A stretch of DNA of 64,000 nt from Phycisphaerales bacterium (GTDB taxonomy: Bacteria; Planctomycetota; Phycisphaerae; Phycisphaerales; SM1A02). Shown one piece after another: positions 24,655 to 34,400 of this stretch. The stretch is taken from contig JAKVBU010000006.1 in the NCBI GenBank assembly GCA_022446885.1, forward strand, positions 62,001 to 126,000, given 5' to 3'. How positions within the stretch are numbered: the first letter of the stretch is position 1; each line of letters opens with the position of its first letter. The position numbers were made by a program, and so were the translations under genes. The notes under the pieces are model-generated. The model was given only the letters and a program-made list of their open reading frames with translations, was not told the DNA's origin and did no database searches.

Positions 24655-24682
24655 TTGGAGATTTGTGGCCTCCCGGTATACT
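24655..24682 (+). promoter_or_regulatory. Candidate full promoter of the GH13 gene
   Basis: TTGGAG (24655-24660), 16-base spacer, TATACT (24677-24682). The predicted transcription start falls within 2 bases of GTG 24691, so the message would be leaderless or nearly so. Confidence 0.5.
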
Positions 24683-24690
24683 CGGTTGCC

Positions 24691-26718
24691 GTGAACAGAC
24701 GTCCTGCTCGATTCAAAATGCTCACCCCGGCGGCACTCACTTTAATGATGTGCGCGTCGGCTGCCTTGGCTCAGTCCACACACCCGGGCATGGGCGCAAA
24801 CGTCTGGATTGACGACTCCGGGTGGGGCACCGCTTTCAGGACCTGGGCTCCAAATGCCGATGCCGTCTATCTATCAGGCGATTTCAACGGCTGGGCAACC
24901 AACACCCACCCGCTTGTGCACGAGGGCGAGGGTGTCTGGAGCGTTGATGTGCACAGTGTCTGGGCCGGCACCCAGTACCAGTTCGTGATCCTCCATGACG
25001 GGGATACGCTTTTCCGCCAGGATCCACGGGCACGTTCGCTCACATCCAGCTCTGGCAAGAGCATCGTTGTCAACCCTGACCAGTACAACTGGCAGCACAC
25101 CTTTGACATGCCGCCCTGGAATGAACTTGTCATCTATGAGTTGCACCCCGGCACGTTCGGCGTCATGGAAAACGGCCCGTTCCCGGGGAATTTCGCCGGC
25201 GTCCGTGCACACCTCGACCATCTGCAGGCATTGGGTGTCAACGCTGTCGAACTGATGCCCGTAGCCGAGTTTCCCGGGGGCCAGTCATGGGGATACAACC
25301 CGTCCCACATCTTCGCCATCGAGCAGCAGTATGGCGGCCCGGATGCCCTCAAGCAGTTGGTGGACGCCTGCCACGAGCGAGGCATCGCCGTACTCATGGA
25401 TGTGGTCTTCAATCACCTCGGCCCTAACGACCTCGCCAGTTGGCAATTCGACGGCTGGTTTGAGAACGAATTGGGAGGGATCTTTTTCTACAACGATGAC
25501 AGAGCCATCACGCCTTGGGGAGACACTCGACCGGACTTTGGCCGCGATGAAGTCCGGCAGTGGCTGAGGGATGCGTTGTTCAGTTGGTTTGACGAATACC
25601 ACGTCGACGGCATTCGCATGGACGGATGCCGCTGGATCGAGTGGACCGACGCCGGAGTCAACCCCGATGGTTGGTCATGGATGCAATGGATCAACGATGA
25701 GCTCGACGCGGTCTATCCCGGTCGATTCATCACCGCCGAGGACATGAGCGACAACCACTGGATCACCAAGACCACAGGTGAGGGTGGGGCCGGATTCGAC
25801 TCGCAATGGGACCCTCACTTTGTTCACCCGATTCGCGAGGCAGTCGAGGCCATCGATGATGACTGGCGCAACATGTGGGCGGTGCATGACGCCATCTCCT
25901 TTGCCTACAACGGCCTGCCGATGCAGCGTGTCATCTTCACCGAATCACACGACGAAGTTGCCAACGGCCGCCAACGGGTTCCCGAGGCAATTTGGCCGGG
26001 ATACGCGGACTCCTGGCACTCAAAGAAGCGATCCACGCTCGCCGCAGTCGTCTTGTTCACCTCCCCGGGCGTTCCCATGCTGTTTCAAGGGCAGGAGTTT
26101 CTGGAAGACGGCTGGTTTGACGACGCCGTCGCCCTCGACTGGGATAGGGCAGAGACCTTTTCCGGCATCACTCACCTCTACCGCGACTTGATTTCTCTCC
26201 GTCGCAATCTTGCGGGAAACTCCCGCGGGCTCACCGGCGAACATGTCAATGTGCATCACGTCAACGACTGGGACAAGGTCATCGCATGGCATCGCTGGAT
26301 GTACGGCGGCCCCGGTGATGATGTCGTCACGATCGCCAACTTCAGTGGAGACGGATGGGGCGACTACCGCATAGGTCTTCCTCACGGCGGCACTTGGCAG
26401 TGTCGATTCAACAGCGACTGGGTGGGCTACGACGCATCGTTCGGCAATCACCCGTGCTGGAGCGTCGAAGCTGAGCCGACCCCCTGGGACGGACTGCCTT
26501 ATAGCGCCCCCGTCTCAATCGGCCCCTGGAGTGCCGCCATCTTCTCGCAATCCCCCGACTGCACTGCCGATCTCAGTGGAGACGGTGTCGTTGGCGTGAA
26601 CGACCTGCTGGTCATCATTGGTCACTGGGAGGAACAGCCAGGCGACATCGACGGTGATGGCACAACCGGCGTCAGTGATCTGCTCGTGTTGCTTGATGCA
26701 TGGGGGCCATGCCCGTGA
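24691..26718 (+). CDS. Secreted GH13 alpha-glucan enzyme (branching-enzyme-like) with dockerin-like repeats
   Basis: 675 residues. A signal peptide (RRPARFK then LTPAALTLMMCASAALA) precedes a CBM48-like early-set domain (FRTWAPNADAVYLSGDFNGW). The GH13 barrel has GYNPSH, DVVFNHLG, nucleophile Asp311 in GIRMDGCRW, acid Glu350 in ITAEDMS and Asp421 in TESHDEV, so the catalytic triad is complete. The closest layout is the glycogen-branching/trehalohydrolase group, but export suggests an extracellular alpha-glucan substrate. Two EF-hand loops, DLSGDGVVGVNDLL and DIDGDGTTGVSDLL, end the protein. Start GTG 24691 fits the promoter; ATG 24718 is the alternative. Confidence 0.8.
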   Translation: MNRRPARFKMLTPAALTLMMCASAALAQSTHPGMGANVWIDDSGWGTAFRTWAPNADAVYLSGDFNGWATNTHPLVHEGEGVWSVDVHSVWAGTQYQFVILHDGDTLFRQDPRARSLTSSSGKSIVVNPDQYNWQHTFDMPPWNELVIYELHPGTFGVMENGPFPGNFAGVRAHLDHLQALGVNAVELMPVAEFPGGQSWGYNPSHIFAIEQQYGGPDALKQLVDACHERGIAVLMDVVFNHLGPNDLASWQFDGWFENELGGIFFYNDDRAITPWGDTRPDFGRDEVRQWLRDALFSWFDEYHVDGIRMDGCRWIEWTDAGVNPDGWSWMQWINDELDAVYPGRFITAEDMSDNHWITKTTGEGGAGFDSQWDPHFVHPIREAVEAIDDDWRNMWAVHDAISFAYNGLPMQRVIFTESHDEVANGRQRVPEAIWPGYADSWHSKKRSTLAAVVLFTSPGVPMLFQGQEFLEDGWFDDAVALDWDRAETFSGITHLYRDLISLRRNLAGNSRGLTGEHVNVHHVNDWDKVIAWHRWMYGGPGDDVVTIANFSGDGWGDYRIGLPHGGTWQCRFNSDWVGYDASFGNHPCWSVEAEPTPWDGLPYSAPVSIGPWSAAIFSQSPDCTADLSGDGVVGVNDLLVIIGHWEEQPGDIDGDGTTGVSDLLVLLDAWGPCP

Positions 26719-29139: not shown

Positions 29140-30732
29140 ATGGGCATGGACACCCTCCTGTTGGACTCTGGCGCGGTCACTGAGGCACAGGTCGAGGAAG
29201 CTCGAACCCAGTCTCAGCGGACCGGTGAGCGGATCGACCGCGCATTGGTGCGTATGGGCCATGTCTCCGCCCGGGCCGTACTCGAGGCCCTCGCTGGCCA
29301 GTTGGCCATGGACATCATCGATCTGGCCGACCATCACCCCGCCGAGTCAGTGACCGAGATGATCCCCTCCCGGCTCGTCTTCCGGCTGCAATGCGTGCCG
29401 ATTGAAGACGACGGCGTCCGGCTTCGGGTTGCCACCAGCGATCCACTGCAGTTGGCCGAGTTGGACGAGTTGCGACTGCTGACGGGTCGAGAGATCGAAC
29501 TCGTGTTGGCTGACGACGAAGACTTGCGTGGCCTCATCCGCCGTCACTATGGAGTCGCCGGCGACACGCTCGACGCGCTCGGCGTCGACCGTCACGACTC
29601 GCCAGAAACGCTGGTCGCCCCTGAAGACGAGGCCCATGAAGCCAGTGTGATCAAGCTTGTCCGCGACTTGCTGATCGAGGCCGTGCGTGAGCGAGCCACC
29701 GACGTGCACATCGAGCCGTTCGAACACAGCCTGTCGATCCGGTATCGGATCGACGGTGTGTTGTCGCCGGCAGGTGTCCCCCCATCGATCAATCAATTCC
29801 GCGACGCGATCACCAGCCGACTGAAAATCATGGCCGGTCTCAATGTGGCCGAGCGGCGCCGCAGCCAAGATGGCCGTATCGCCCTGAGGCATGAGGGACG
29901 TGAATTCGACCTTCGTGTGTCGATCATTCCAATGGTGCACGGCGAAGGCATCGTGCTGCGAATACTCGAGTCATCGGCAGTGCTGCTGGGGCTGGAACAG
30001 TTGGGCATGGAGCCTGAACTGCTCCAACGCTGGGACGACCTCATCGCCCGGCCACATGGCATCCTGCTGGTGACCGGCCCAACCGGTTCGGGCAAGTCGA
30101 CAACGCTCTACGCCTCACTCAACCGGATCGTGAGCGACTCGGTCAAGGCGATCACCATCGAGGATCCGGTCGAGTACCAGCTCACGGGCGTCAACCAGAT
30201 CCCCGTCACCGAAGGGGCGATCGATTTTGCCCAAGGCCTGCGGGCCGTGCTTCGGCACGACCCGGACATCGTCATGGTGGGCGAGATCAGAGATCGATTG
30301 ACCGCCGAAGCTGCCATCCAGGCATCGCTCACAGGCCACCTGGTCTTCTCGACGCTGCACACCAACGATGCCCCCTCGGCCATGCCACGGTTGATCGACA
30401 TGGGCGTTGAGCCATTTCTGGTGTCCTCAAGCCTCGAGGGCGTGCTGGCTCAGCGTCTGGTGCGGCGTCTGTGCACGTCGTGCGACACCCCGGGAAGTGG
30501 TTGCCGGGACTGCCGAAGCACCGGCTATCGAGGCCGTGTCGGCCTGTATGAGCTCATGGCCTTTGACGCGGCCATTCGAGATCAAGTGCTCCAGCGTTCG
30601 GCGTCCGGGGTGCTACGGGCTCAGGCGGATGAGCGTGGGCTCCTACTGGGCCTGGAGGCCTCCGGAGCAGCCAAGATTGAGCAGGGCCTGACCACCCAGC
30701 AGGAGGTCGCCCGCGTGACCCGATCCCACTGA
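29140..30732 (+). CDS. gspE: GspE/PilB-type secretion or pilus assembly ATPase
   Basis: Cytoplasmic motor ATPase that drives pseudopilus or pilus assembly. 530 residues: an N-terminal T2SSE_N domain (residues 1-150), then SVIKLVRDLLIEAVRERATDVHIEP, Walker A GPTGSGKSTTLYA (about 313), Asp box TIEDPVEYQ, Walker B DPDIVMVGEIRD and His box LTGHLVFSTLHTNDA. A zinc tetracysteine, CTSC...CRDC, precedes GYRGRVGLYELM. The order is complete. No gspF, gspD or pilus genes lie next to it, but two pseudopilin genes occur in the window. Confidence 0.92.
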   Translation: MGMDTLLLDSGAVTEAQVEEARTQSQRTGERIDRALVRMGHVSARAVLEALAGQLAMDIIDLADHHPAESVTEMIPSRLVFRLQCVPIEDDGVRLRVATSDPLQLAELDELRLLTGREIELVLADDEDLRGLIRRHYGVAGDTLDALGVDRHDSPETLVAPEDEAHEASVIKLVRDLLIEAVRERATDVHIEPFEHSLSIRYRIDGVLSPAGVPPSINQFRDAITSRLKIMAGLNVAERRRSQDGRIALRHEGREFDLRVSIIPMVHGEGIVLRILESSAVLLGLEQLGMEPELLQRWDDLIARPHGILLVTGPTGSGKSTTLYASLNRIVSDSVKAITIEDPVEYQLTGVNQIPVTEGAIDFAQGLRAVLRHDPDIVMVGEIRDRLTAEAAIQASLTGHLVFSTLHTNDAPSAMPRLIDMGVEPFLVSSSLEGVLAQRLVRRLCTSCDTPGSGCRDCRSTGYRGRVGLYELMAFDAAIRDQVLQRSASGVLRAQADERGLLLGLEASGAAKIEQGLTTQQEVARVTRSH

Positions 30733-30850
30733 GGGATTGAATTGGCTCTCGCGACCACGCGGCGGGCCAATCCCGGTATCTTGACGCATCTGGACATCGG
30801 GGGGACTATGCCCGATTCCAGGCGATTCATCGCCACGCTCGGAGATTTCA

Positions 30851-32221
30851 ATGGCCATTCGTACTTCCGCCGGCACCGGCGTCATCATCTCGCTGATCGT
30901 CTTTGTTCTGCTCACCGTGCTTCTGGCGGTGCTGTCGATTCTGCTTTGGGGCCGTCTACGCGAAGCCCAACAGTCAGTAGACAACGCAGACCAGAATCTT
31001 TCGCAGTATGCCTCCTCGAGTGAGCGCACCTCCGACTGGATGGACCTAATCAAGAACCAGAGCGGTCGTAAGTCGGTCGTGGGCTGGCTGCACGATGAGA
31101 ACGGTCAACTCAAGGGCCTTCTTGGTGGATCATCGAGCGACTCGATGGACAACATCAAAGAGCGGATGGAGGCACTTGGGCTGACACCGGAGAACACGGC
31201 GCTTGATTTGATCGCTCGCCAATCACGTCAGTTGGGTGAAGCCACCTCCGCACGCAGCCAGCTCGAAGAGCGTGTAAACGTCGCAGAGGGCGCCGTCAGT
31301 GACCTGCAGAAGCGACTGAATGAAGTCGAAGAGTTGAACAACAAGGTGGCGCAGAAAGCCTCCGACGCACTGGAGCCCTTCCGCGATGCAGAAACTCGGC
31401 ACGACGCCCGCATCAACGAGGCAATCAGTGAGTTCAAGAAGGCCGAAGCGCGCACGCGAGATCGCTACACCGACCAGATCGACAGCCTCGAGACCGAGAA
31501 CGACGACTATCGCCGACGGAATCACACGCTGCAGTCACGTCTGGCCGATTTGGACTCCACCTTCACCCGCAACCGCGTCATGACGACCGACCCCAGCCTG
31601 CTTGCAGATGGTCGGGTCATCGAGGTCGTGGGCTCCGATCGGGTCTATCTGGATCGAGGCAAACGTGATCACGTCATGCTCGGCATGACGTTTGAGGTCT
31701 ACGACGACCCGACCCAGATTCAACCCGACGAAGATGGCAAGTTCCCTCCCGGCAAGGCGAGCATTCAGGTGCTCAAGGTTGGCGATTCAACCTCGACCGC
31801 CAAGATCACTCGCACCTCGCCTCGCCAGCACGTGCTGGCCAATGATGTCTTCGCCAGCCTCGCCTACTCACCTGACTACAAGTTCCTGTTCCTTGTGCAT
31901 GGCGCGTTCGACGTCAACAAGGACGGCATCTCCACGACGGAGGAAGCCGAGCACCTGCGCGATCGCATTCGTCGCTGGGGCGGCGCAGTCGTCGAAGGCG
32001 ATGCAATCCCGGGCAATCTCGACTTCCTCATTCTGGGAGACCAGCCCAAGGCGCCCGAGCGGCCTCAGGGGGCATCGCTCTCTCAGCAGGAGTGGCAGGA
32101 TTACACCCGCCGCCGACAGGTCTATGAGACTTACCAGAACCTGTTTGACACAGCCCGTGAGGCCCGAATCCCGGTTCTGAATCAGAATCGTTTCGAGGTG
32201 CTCTCCGGCCAGCACGGCTGA
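30851..32221 (+). CDS. Membrane-anchored coiled-coil protein with MreC/FlgT-like beta domain and BRCT-like, EF-hand-bearing C-terminus
   Basis: 456 residues, not a known named family. Residues 11-33 form one membrane helix (VIISLIVFVLLTVLLAVL). Residues about 35-60 and 120-245 are heptad-rich coiled coil. Residues about 250-335 form a beta domain (GRVIEVVGSDRVYLDRGKRD, GMTFEVYD) like those after coiled coils in MreC/FlgT-type proteins. The last 110 residues look like a divergent BRCT fold: FLFLVHGAF, IRRWGGAVVEG, LDFLILGDQP and AREARIPVLNQNRFEVL. A canonical EF-hand loop, DVNKDGISTTEE (354-365), sits inside it. GGAGA supports the ATG. Function unknown. Confidence 0.6.
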   Translation: MAIRTSAGTGVIISLIVFVLLTVLLAVLSILLWGRLREAQQSVDNADQNLSQYASSSERTSDWMDLIKNQSGRKSVVGWLHDENGQLKGLLGGSSSDSMDNIKERMEALGLTPENTALDLIARQSRQLGEATSARSQLEERVNVAEGAVSDLQKRLNEVEELNNKVAQKASDALEPFRDAETRHDARINEAISEFKKAEARTRDRYTDQIDSLETENDDYRRRNHTLQSRLADLDSTFTRNRVMTTDPSLLADGRVIEVVGSDRVYLDRGKRDHVMLGMTFEVYDDPTQIQPDEDGKFPPGKASIQVLKVGDSTSTAKITRTSPRQHVLANDVFASLAYSPDYKFLFLVHGAFDVNKDGISTTEEAEHLRDRIRRWGGAVVEGDAIPGNLDFLILGDQPKAPERPQGASLSQQEWQDYTRRRQVYETYQNLFDTAREARIPVLNQNRFEVLSGQHG

Positions 32222-32267
32222 CGGACATCACTCCACCCTCATGCCCACCAAGGGCGAGGGGCTACTC

Positions 32268-33311
32268 ATGGGCTCCACACGAACGCCCCTGCGAAACCTG
32301 GCCGAGTACATCCCGGCCCGGGCTCTGGCGTCGGTGATTCGGTGCTTTCCGCCAGAACGCAATCAGTCAACAGCTGACTTGGCCGCAACGATCTACGCCC
32401 GCTGCACGCCTCGACGAACGGCCAGAGCCACGGATAACGTCAAGCGGTCCATGCCCCACTTGTCTGACCGACAAGCTCAGCAGTTGGCTGTGGATTCGAT
32501 TTGCCATCTATTCCGTCTGGCACTCATGGATGCCATGCAGATGGACCGGGTGATTCACCCCGATCGTTGGTGGCACCATCTGGACATTCGACAGGCATCC
32601 CGTGCACGGGCGGTGCTGATGGGCGATCGTCCGGCGATTCTCGTCACTGGACATCTGGGTAACTGGGAACTGCTGGGATTTGCTCTATCGATGCTCGGCG
32701 TGAAGCTGCACGCGCTCGCTCGCCCACTCGACAACCCTCTCCTCAATCGCTGGCTCCTGGGCATTCGAGAAGCGTGGGGCCTGAAGGTGCTGACGAAGTT
32801 CGGTGCCGCCCCGCGCATGCAGGCCATTCTCGACCGCGGTGAGCACCTTGCCTTCATCGCTGATCAGAACGCCGGCGATCGGGGCATGTTCGTGCCGTTC
32901 TTCGGTCGGCTCGCATCGGCCTACAAGTCGATCGCCTTGTTGGCCATCACCCAGAAACTGCCGGTGGTTGTAGCCGGTGCATTTCGCGTGAAGCGTGGCA
33001 TCCACTACCGGCTGGAAGTACAGGAAGTCATCGAGCCTGAGCAGTGGAGTGATCACGATAATCCGGTCTACTGGCTCACTGCCCGGTACACATGGGGCCT
33101 GGAACAACTCGTCAAACGGCACCCCTCGCAGTATCTCTGGTTACATCGCCGCTGGAAGAGCCGGCCGCGGCACGAACGCAATGGAACAGAGATGTCTGCC
33201 GCACTCGAGCGACGCATTCGAGGGCTCGATTGGCTTGATGCCTCGGAGCAGGACGGGGTCATCCAACGATCCAACGCCGAGGCGATTGACGGACCCGGGT
33301 CGAACAACTGA
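32268..33311 (+). CDS. LpxL/HtrB-type lipid A (Kdo) acyltransferase family protein
   Basis: 347 residues of the lysophospholipid acyltransferase superfamily, lipid A type. The catalytic HX4E motif is HLGNWE (His129, Glu134). FIADQNAGDRGMFVPFFG is the acceptor region, and YLWLHRRWKSRPRHER is the diagnostic C-terminal motif. By family it adds a secondary acyl chain to a lipid A precursor at the inner membrane. The start ATG at 32268 is chosen over 32241 because GAGGGG sits 6 bases upstream. A long C-terminal tail (after about 305) is unlike E. coli LpxL. Confidence 0.82.
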   Translation: MGSTRTPLRNLAEYIPARALASVIRCFPPERNQSTADLAATIYARCTPRRTARATDNVKRSMPHLSDRQAQQLAVDSICHLFRLALMDAMQMDRVIHPDRWWHHLDIRQASRARAVLMGDRPAILVTGHLGNWELLGFALSMLGVKLHALARPLDNPLLNRWLLGIREAWGLKVLTKFGAAPRMQAILDRGEHLAFIADQNAGDRGMFVPFFGRLASAYKSIALLAITQKLPVVVAGAFRVKRGIHYRLEVQEVIEPEQWSDHDNPVYWLTARYTWGLEQLVKRHPSQYLWLHRRWKSRPRHERNGTEMSAALERRIRGLDWLDASEQDGVIQRSNAEAIDGPGSNN

Positions 33312-33321
33312 TACTCCTTCG

Positions 33322-33705
33322 ATGCCTGGCTCACTTCAGAACCGAAGAATTCTGGTCGTGGACGACGATGAGGACATTCGCGCCGGCATCGTGCTGGCGC
33401 TGCAGGCTGATGGGGCATCAGTTACCGAGGCTGCCGACGGCAATGAGGCGGTAGACCTACTTGCCGGTGACACACCAGAAGCCGTTGTGCTCGATCTCAT
33501 GCTCCCGGGGCGTAGTGGTTTTCTGGTGCTGGAGGAGGCTCAGGGATGCACGCCACGGCCGATCGTGATCATGGTCACCGCCAATGAGGGCCGACGCCAC
33601 GAGTCGTGGGCCCGCACACAGGGCGTGGATGACTATTTCGTCAAGCCGGTTCCGTTGGGGCGGCTCTCTGACCGCCTCGCCCAACTGCTGGGTGAGCCAT
33701 CCTGA
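33322..33705 (+). CDS. Single-domain response regulator
   Basis: 127 residues forming a lone CheY-like receiver: acidic pocket VVDDDED (15-17), phospho-acceptor Asp58 in VVLDLMLPGRSG, Thr near 86 (VTANEG) and Lys108 in YFVKPVPLGRLSDRL. There is no output domain, so it must act by protein contact. Eleven bases follow the LpxL-type gene. No histidine kinase is in the window. Confidence 0.85.
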   Translation: MPGSLQNRRILVVDDDEDIRAGIVLALQADGASVTEAADGNEAVDLLAGDTPEAVVLDLMLPGRSGFLVLEEAQGCTPRPIVIMVTANEGRRHESWARTQGVDDYFVKPVPLGRLSDRLAQLLGEPS

Positions 33706-33720: not shown

Positions 33721-34020
33721 ATGGCGCAGCAATTCGTCATTCTGGCCCGTACCGGCAACGGCGACGCCCCGCTTGGCAGCCGCAAGGAGATTGTCTCGCG
33801 ACTGGCCGGCCTCAATACGTGCCCTGAGACCGACGGCGAGGATGTGCTCTGGGGGCCGGGCATCCGCATTGATCTTCCGCCGGATCAGGATCCGGTCAGG
33901 CAGATGCTGCTGGGCATCGTCGAAGAGGAGATCGCCTGGCTCGTCATCATGCGATTGGCCCGTGAGTGCCAGTGGCGAGTCGTCGATATGGAAACGGGCG
34001 ACGAACTGGTGCCAGAGTGA
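33721..34020 (+). CDS. Small protein of unknown function (99 residues)
   Basis: A compact soluble protein, QQFVILARTGNGDAPLG to GDELVPE, with a central acidic stretch (CPETDGEDVLWG) and a helical hydrophobic segment (EEEIAWLVIMRLAREC). No motif is recognised and no signal peptide is present. It overlaps the next gene by GTGA, so the two proteins are likely made together and may interact. Confidence 0.6.
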   Translation: MAQQFVILARTGNGDAPLGSRKEIVSRLAGLNTCPETDGEDVLWGPGIRIDLPPDQDPVRQMLLGIVEEEIAWLVIMRLARECQWRVVDMETGDELVPE

Positions 34021-34400
34021 CCAACCCCACCAAGGGTGATCTCGAAGCGAGCGGGGAACTTGATGAAGGGCAGCAGGGACTGCATCTGACACGCCTTGAC
34101 GGTGAATCTGCATTCGCCGGGGCGATCGCGATGGCGGTGAACTACCGAGGTGACGTCACTATCGAGCAGCAGCAAGGTGAGCGCATCGTGTGCTTCGTGT
34201 TCGATCGTACAGACACCCTGATTCGATACATGACCTCTTCCGGCGTGCGAGCGTCCATCTCGATCGATGAGGTGGAAGGCATCGTTTTCAGCGGCAAGGA
34301 CCCGGCCGTTGGAGTCACCTTTGAGCGGTGGATCGAGCGATACGTCGAGCGCACACTTGCGGGGGAAGAAGCCTCACTGCACGGTGATGAGTCGGCCTGA
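34017..34400 (+). CDS. Protein of unknown function (127 residues), coupled to the preceding gene
   Basis: GTG start inside the previous stop (GTGA). The sequence begins TNPTKGDLEASGELDEGQQG, is acidic, and continues in short beta strands (GDVTIEQQQGERIVCFVFD), ending VERTLAGEEASLHG. I do not recognise the family. The open frame reaches further upstream, but the coupled start is the economical choice. It ends one base before the convergent gene's stop. Confidence 0.6.
   Translation: MTNPTKGDLEASGELDEGQQGLHLTRLDGESAFAGAIAMAVNYRGDVTIEQQQGERIVCFVFDRTDTLIRYMTSSGVRASISIDEVEGIVFSGKDPAVGVTFERWIERYVERTLAGEEASLHGDESA

Follow-up and report, generated by a model that had tools for sequence, protein, structure and literature searches.

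A near-universal protein of Planctomycetota with a predicted membrane anchor, a coiled coil and a divergent BRCT domain

In most bacterial species, BRCT domains are found in only one or two proteins, the DNA ligase and a DNA polymerase III subunit (PMC10386641). An open reading frame near the middle of the window, the whole stretch of 64,000 nucleotides analysed here, raises the question whether this domain can also be carried by a membrane-tethered coiled coil, and on which side of the membrane it would then work. The initial annotation had read the product as a membrane-anchored coiled-coil protein with a BRCT-like tail containing an EF-hand loop. It had further suggested that the architecture is new, possibly extracytoplasmic and perhaps controlled by calcium. 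The gene, here called X, starts with ATG and encodes 456 amino acids according to open reading frame analysis of the window. Its features are as follows.

30841..30844, plus strand: GGAG, likely ribosome binding site, 6 bases 5' of the X ATG (sequence)
30851..32221, plus strand: X gene, with transmembrane helix, coiled coil, FlgT_C-like barrel and BRCT domain (open reading frame; genome conservation)
30878..30946, plus strand: single membrane helix, residues 10-32, with predicted cytoplasmic N-terminus (Kyte-Doolittle; family flank charges)
31196..31576, plus strand: long helix or coiled coil, residues 116-242 (AlphaFold 2 secondary structure; coiled-coil Pfam noise)
31604..31861, plus strand: beta-barrel, about residues 252-337, FlgT_C/TsaP-like (profile and fold matches)
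31868..32212, plus strand: BRCT domain with two insertions, residues 340-454 (hhalign, Pfam in relatives, PDB profile match)
31910..31945, plus strand: EF-type acidic loop DVNKDGISTTEE, residues 354-365, between beta-1 and alpha-1 of the BRCT domain (alignment; per-position counts)
32042..32131, plus strand: second insertion, about residues 398-427 (alignment)

All the motifs on which the first reading was based were located in X in the order given, namely RVYLDRGKRD, GMTFEVYD, FLFLVHGAF, DVNKDGISTTEE, IRRWGGAVVEG, LDFLILGDQP and ARIPVLNQNRFEVL. A promoter scan upstream of X gave no site exceeding the shuffled background. An AlphaFold model built on an alignment of 18 sequences placed the membrane helix within residues 8-51, a helix at 116-242, a beta domain at 254-336 and a mixed alpha/beta region in the tail. 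The mean pLDDT was 75.6 for the whole model and 82.1 for residues 241-456.

X was detected at full or near-full length in 60 of the 61 nearest genomes with 24-68% identity, and this conservation marks it as a real gene. Except one split match, each of these genomes has a single copy. In the class as a whole, X was matched in 193 of 198 genomes (154 of 155 when the good ones alone are counted), making it a core, normally single-copy and near universal gene of the class. The named loci belong to Phycisphaerales and Planctomycetota bacteria. In a sample of the phylum, all 199 genomes matched at E<=0.001 a profile of diverse X members, a profile which includes the coiled coil. With a coiled-coil-free profile of barrel and BRCT domain, 195 of the 199 matched at E<=1e-6 and about 179, counted from the table, at E<1e-15. 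The domain order recurs in the phylum. One family (f67) gave weak matches only, around 1e-8 with the barrel and BRCT profile, in its near-complete genomes G281, G301, G318, G335, G350, G379, G393 and G418. In this family X may be lost or highly divergent, and the weak matches may come from the BRCT domain of LigA itself. Tandem pairs of X paralogues were observed in other classes of the phylum (L074, L078, L079, L085, L086 and L087). When the own genome was searched with the barrel and BRCT profile, X was the sole match. The single Pfam BRCT of this genome lies on another contig, in a 674-aa open frame fitting the LigA ligase.

A single-sequence search of the window X against Pfam and NCBIfam gave no BRCT, just noise from the coiled coil and a FlgT_C match below threshold, so relatives were needed to prove the motif reading of the tail. 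Comparison of 89 tails of the class with 25 LigA BRCT domains of the same phylum by hhalign gave E 7.8e-12 with a probability of 97.5, while the best of 40 column shuffles reached E 0.054 and the reversed alignment 0.36. With the tails of 26 other phylum members, the value was 3.3e-23. PF00533 was found above its cut-off in 18 of 27 distant members (best E 1.6e-18) and in 18 of 40 class members (best E 2.1e-5), and L074 and L079 possess two BRCT domains in tandem. The X family profile matched the BRCT of a DNA ligase in the PDB (1l7b, E 1.7e-8). Searched against all PDB sequences, the barrel and BRCT profile recovered the BRCTs of DNA ligase, RFC1, XRCC1, Mdb1 and TopBP1, along with TsaP through the other domain. 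The alignment also contains intermediates, which run from members with a short loop and an ordinary BRCT pattern to members that have the acidic loop as an insertion. The proposal of a BRCT tail on a membrane-tethered coiled coil is therefore borne out far above chance. The structural call was correct and harder than it appeared. The domains are visible only with family-level profiles.

In the AlphaFold model, the tail is composed of a strand at 346-350, a helix at 364-376, strands at 379-381 and 392-395, a helix at 412-437, a short strand at about 442 and a helix at 445-451, with pLDDT of about 80-92. This predicted succession follows the BRCT order beta1-alpha1-beta2-beta3-alpha2-beta4-alpha3. 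Beta4 is preceded by a long helix which falls inside an insertion. This second insertion occupies the site of the short, lysine-bearing alpha-2 of other BRCTs. Foldseek and VIA-align searches with both models gave lists filled up by barrels (F1-ATPase, FlgT), with no BRCT among the matches listed, and are neutral on the BRCT fold. The BRCT likeness could in principle be fortuitous, the tail being an unrelated alpha/beta domain; the window X itself has no Pfam BRCT match, and the matches listed in the model's fold search were all barrels. But the family profile evidence lies many orders of magnitude above the shuffled controls and the intermediates exceed the Pfam cut-off, leaving this alternative with a negligible probability and refuted in practice. 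Judged from the profiles, the tail is a true BRCT domain, though a divergent one.

The residue composition of this domain hints at how it may be used. In BRCTs which bind 5'-phosphate DNA or phosphopeptides, the Thr-Gly and Lys positions contact the phosphate. At the position preceding the beta-1 glycine, 21 of 25 LigA BRCTs from this phylum have threonine, while among 115 members of the X family threonine occurs in 0 and serine in 6. The GSK lysine motif is carried by 23 of these 25 LigA BRCTs and by 0 of 115 X members. Phosphate-binding BRCTs such as those of LigA, RFC1 and BRCA1 have Thr/Ser-Gly following beta1 and a lysine within alpha2, and X does not belong to this type. This loss, which the first reading had missed, argues against binding of DNA or phosphopeptides and is in keeping with a BRCT that serves contacts between proteins.

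The acidic loop DVNKDGISTTEE fits the EF consensus at positions 1, 3, 5, 6 and 12, with acidic residues at 1, 3, 5 and 12 and glycine at 6. In the own family (n=41), position 1 (D354) is aspartate in all 41 members, position 3 is D/N in 40, position 5 is D/N in 40, Gly6 is found in 35 and Glu/Asp12 in 37. The full pattern D-x-[DN]-x-[DN]-G...[ED] was found in 31 of 41 members of the own family, 10 of 17 in the rest of the order, 4 of 31 in the rest of the class and 0 of 20 in most other classes. Six loci of two other families have an acidic D-x-[DN]-x-D core with altered spacing. The distribution suggests an old insertion whose acidic core is selected in part of the phylum. In the AlphaFold 2 model, the E/F helix-loop-helix pair was not found; a strand precedes the only loop, and no Pfam EF-hand family was among the matches listed for X. 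As the loop follows a strand and has no EF-hand match, it is better described as an EF-type loop than as an EF-hand. The earlier claim thus holds for the 12-residue spacing and the position between beta-1 and alpha-1, and fails for a full EF-hand. Conservation in orthologues likewise stands for the own family and for a large part of the class, and not for most other classes. Because the loop is absent there, any calcium control cannot be a general property of X.

The likeness of the barrel to FlgT_C and TsaP was another feature missed in the first reading. FlgT_C (PF16538) was matched by 17 of 40 class members with a best E of 2.3e-7; the window X alone gave E 0.052 and 14.4 bits, under the 27-bit cut-off. 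The barrel and BRCT profile matched TsaP (3jc8) with E 1.9e-5 among all PDB sequences. Fold matches of the barrel included FlgT (3w1e), the LPHT ring (8z5n) and, in F1-ATPase, the N-terminal barrel. Both FlgT and TsaP belong to the cell envelope, a setting that fits the topology predicted for X. The F1-ATPase is cytosolic, so the fold alone cannot fix the location of X. LysM, which accompanies the FlgT_C-like domain in the exported TsaP, was absent among the Pfam matches listed for X.

The X family has one hydrophobic segment. A Kyte-Doolittle scan found no second one, the strongest 19-residue stretch elsewhere in any family member scoring 1.75. Around the membrane helix, the mean net charge is +1.97 on the N side, amino terminus included, and -0.34 on the C side. 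The N flank is more positive than the C flank in 95 of 105 members and the reverse is true in 2 of 105. This charge bias, together with the single helix, predicts a cytoplasmic N-terminus and an extracytoplasmic BRCT, in agreement with the placement suggested earlier. The topology is a prediction only, since the N-terminal flank is short, with about 8-10 residues, and Lys and Arg taken as a plain count are more numerous on the C side (1.75) than on the N side (1.11). The coiled coil of 127 residues would measure about 19 nm as one straight helix. Its matches to EzrA, SMC, Rad50 and bZIP were rejected as composition noise.

The genes around X in the window are given below.

29140..30732, plus strand: GspE/PilB-type ATPase with MshEN, upstream of X (PF00437 E 4.9e-116, PF05157)
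32241..33311, plus strand: lipid A acyltransferase (LpxL-like), downstream of X (PF03279 E 6.5e-35)
33322..33705, plus strand: response regulator receiver protein (PF00072 E 1e-19; order kept in 16/17 loci)
33721..34020, plus strand: smallA, conserved, 99 aa, no Pfam family (sequence, gene order)
34020..34400, plus strand: smallB, conserved, about 126 aa, no Pfam family (sequence, gene order)

The acyltransferase, here 19 bases from X, is the next gene in all 17 Phycisphaerales loci with flanks (L032-L048), and in nearly all of them it is followed by the response regulator, smallA and smallB. The GspE/PilB-type ATPase, whose MshEN domain is of the c-di-GMP-binding type, adjoins X in only 6 of the 17. 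A firm link with type II secretion through this upstream gene was dropped, as the neighbour is not kept. Outside the class, X shares its strand with tatC and lies immediately upstream of it in eight loci of several families, often with coaE and rho on the other side of X (for example L071, L082, L083 and L088), and this locus is conserved across the phylum. X is divergent from polA in five loci of two families outside the class, and within the class polA also adjoins it in two loci belonging to other orders. The loci pairing X with polA are overall L070, L072, L076, L077, L089, L170 and L176. The divergent housekeeping genes polA, coaE and rho mark a shared ancestral position, while the co-directional neighbours LpxL and TatC point to the envelope. 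Elsewhere in the window, the open reading frame at 24655-26718 is alpha-amylase/branching-enzyme-like and ends in two dockerin-like DxxGDG repeats.

The reading which we favour, with moderate confidence, is that X forms an inner-membrane coiled-coil stalk with a periplasmic head of barrel and BRCT domain which docks a partner protein. The N-terminal helix would fix the protein in the inner membrane, leaving a short tail in the cytoplasm, and the coiled coil would span the periplasm and bear the head formed by the FlgT_C/TsaP-like barrel and the BRCT. The BRCT would act as a protein-protein docking module, with neither 5'-phosphate DNA binding nor phosphopeptide binding in the usual mode expected. 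In this lineage, the calcium-type loop at the beta-1/alpha-1 turn may bind metal and make the docking face stiffer or adjust it. A component of the envelope is the probable partner, because X lies directly upstream of the lipid A acyltransferase here and of TatC elsewhere. The order of domains, the BRCT homology, the conservation, the lost residues and the gene order are observed, whereas the periplasmic location, the docking, the metal binding and the partner are inferences from them. Against this stand the short N flank and the basic residue count of a topology that is predicted, the occurrence of the barrel fold in the cytosolic F1-ATPase, the polA neighbour in some relatives as a possible nucleoid hint, and a docking role based on lost residues and general BRCT knowledge. 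The polA neighbour would suit an inverted protein with its N-terminus outside, in which a cytoplasmic coiled coil and BRCT tether the chromosome or replication and repair proteins. The characterised BRCT proteins described in a review mostly serve DNA metabolism or the cell cycle (PMC10386641), and polA is the divergent neighbour in several lineages. However, the charge bias (95 against 2 of 105), the FlgT_C/TsaP-like barrel, the co-directional LpxL and TatC neighbours and the lost phosphate and DNA contact residues all speak for the opposite orientation, and the inverted arrangement is considered improbable.

Two other explanations were weighed. X may be a secretin accessory of the TsaP/FlgT kind in type II secretion or the type IV pilus, its barrel packing around the secretin ring and its coiled coil connecting to the inner membrane. 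The barrel matches to TsaP and to the FlgT/LPHT ring agree with this, as does the GspE/PilB ATPase gene that immediately precedes X in this genome and in 6 of 17 relatives. But that ATPase is missing beside X in most relatives and outside the order, X is without the LysM present in TsaP, and such barrels are widespread; an accessory role of this type appears unlikely. X could otherwise be a morphogenesis or division scaffold like MreC, which has a transmembrane helix, a coiled coil and a beta barrel, a gross layout shared by X, and would then take part in growth and division without FtsZ in Planctomycetota. Such a scaffold would be a special case overlapping the favoured reading. It agrees with a core, single-copy gene of the class that is near universal in a phylum reported to be without ftsZ (PMC10632474). 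Against it, no division or wall gene is found among the neighbours of X, and MreC (PF04085) is absent among the Pfam matches listed for X, with a different gene of the genome matching it weakly. The scaffold role is rated as rather doubtful, though a little less so than the inverted and secretin-associated arrangements.

The domains of X are of known kinds and their combination is undescribed. This architecture came up neither in Pfam/NCBIfam nor in the papers searched on BRCT with Planctomycetes and periplasm or transmembrane, in accordance with the novelty first proposed, and a review of BRCT mentions no periplasmic one (PMC10386641). If the favoured reading is true, a BRCT docking fold has moved from DNA metabolism to the cell envelope. 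X is an unstudied candidate part of the unusual envelope of Planctomycetota, with relatives in nearly all sampled members. A transposon study of Planctopirus limnophila states that ftsZ has been lost in all Planctomycetes, and it reports 108 essential phylum-specific proteins of unknown function (PMC10632474). X offers a specific gene to examine in such a phylum, rich in essential unknowns (PMC10632474). Automated annotation is likely to overlook it or to name it a ligase fragment. NCBIfam LigA models match the BRCT in 13 of 27 distant members, so these proteins may be mislabelled in that way. A bolder and rather unlikely proposal is that X would be the first extracytoplasmic BRCT, a phylum-wide periplasmic docking head which is borne on an inner-membrane coiled-coil stalk, is calcium-tuned in Phycisphaerae and organises envelope growth or division without FtsZ.

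Among known systems, X resembles several in part. With the calcium loops of EF-hand and dockerin type, its loop shares the DxDxDG...E spacing over 12 residues and the helix that follows. It differs from them in the strand before the loop, the absence of an E-helix and of a Pfam match, and its loss in most other classes. With MreC, it has the same order of transmembrane helix, coiled coil and beta barrel, whereas it lacks a PF04085 match and has an additional BRCT. TsaP, associated with the type IV pilus secretin, and FlgT of the flagellar H-ring share with X the beta-barrel domain and, as predicted, an envelope setting. Unlike these, X has no LysM and no cleavable signal peptide was seen in it, while it possesses a transmembrane anchor, a coiled coil and a BRCT. 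The C-terminal BRCT of LigA (PF00533; 1l7b) shares with the X tail the order of fold elements, the GG between alpha-1 and beta-2, the D-[FY]-L-V-x-G strand and the A...GV-I-[LI] end. In contrast to that of LigA, the BRCT of X is without the Thr-Gly and Lys phosphate contacts, contains two insertions, one of them the acidic calcium-type loop, and is carried on a membrane-anchored coiled coil.
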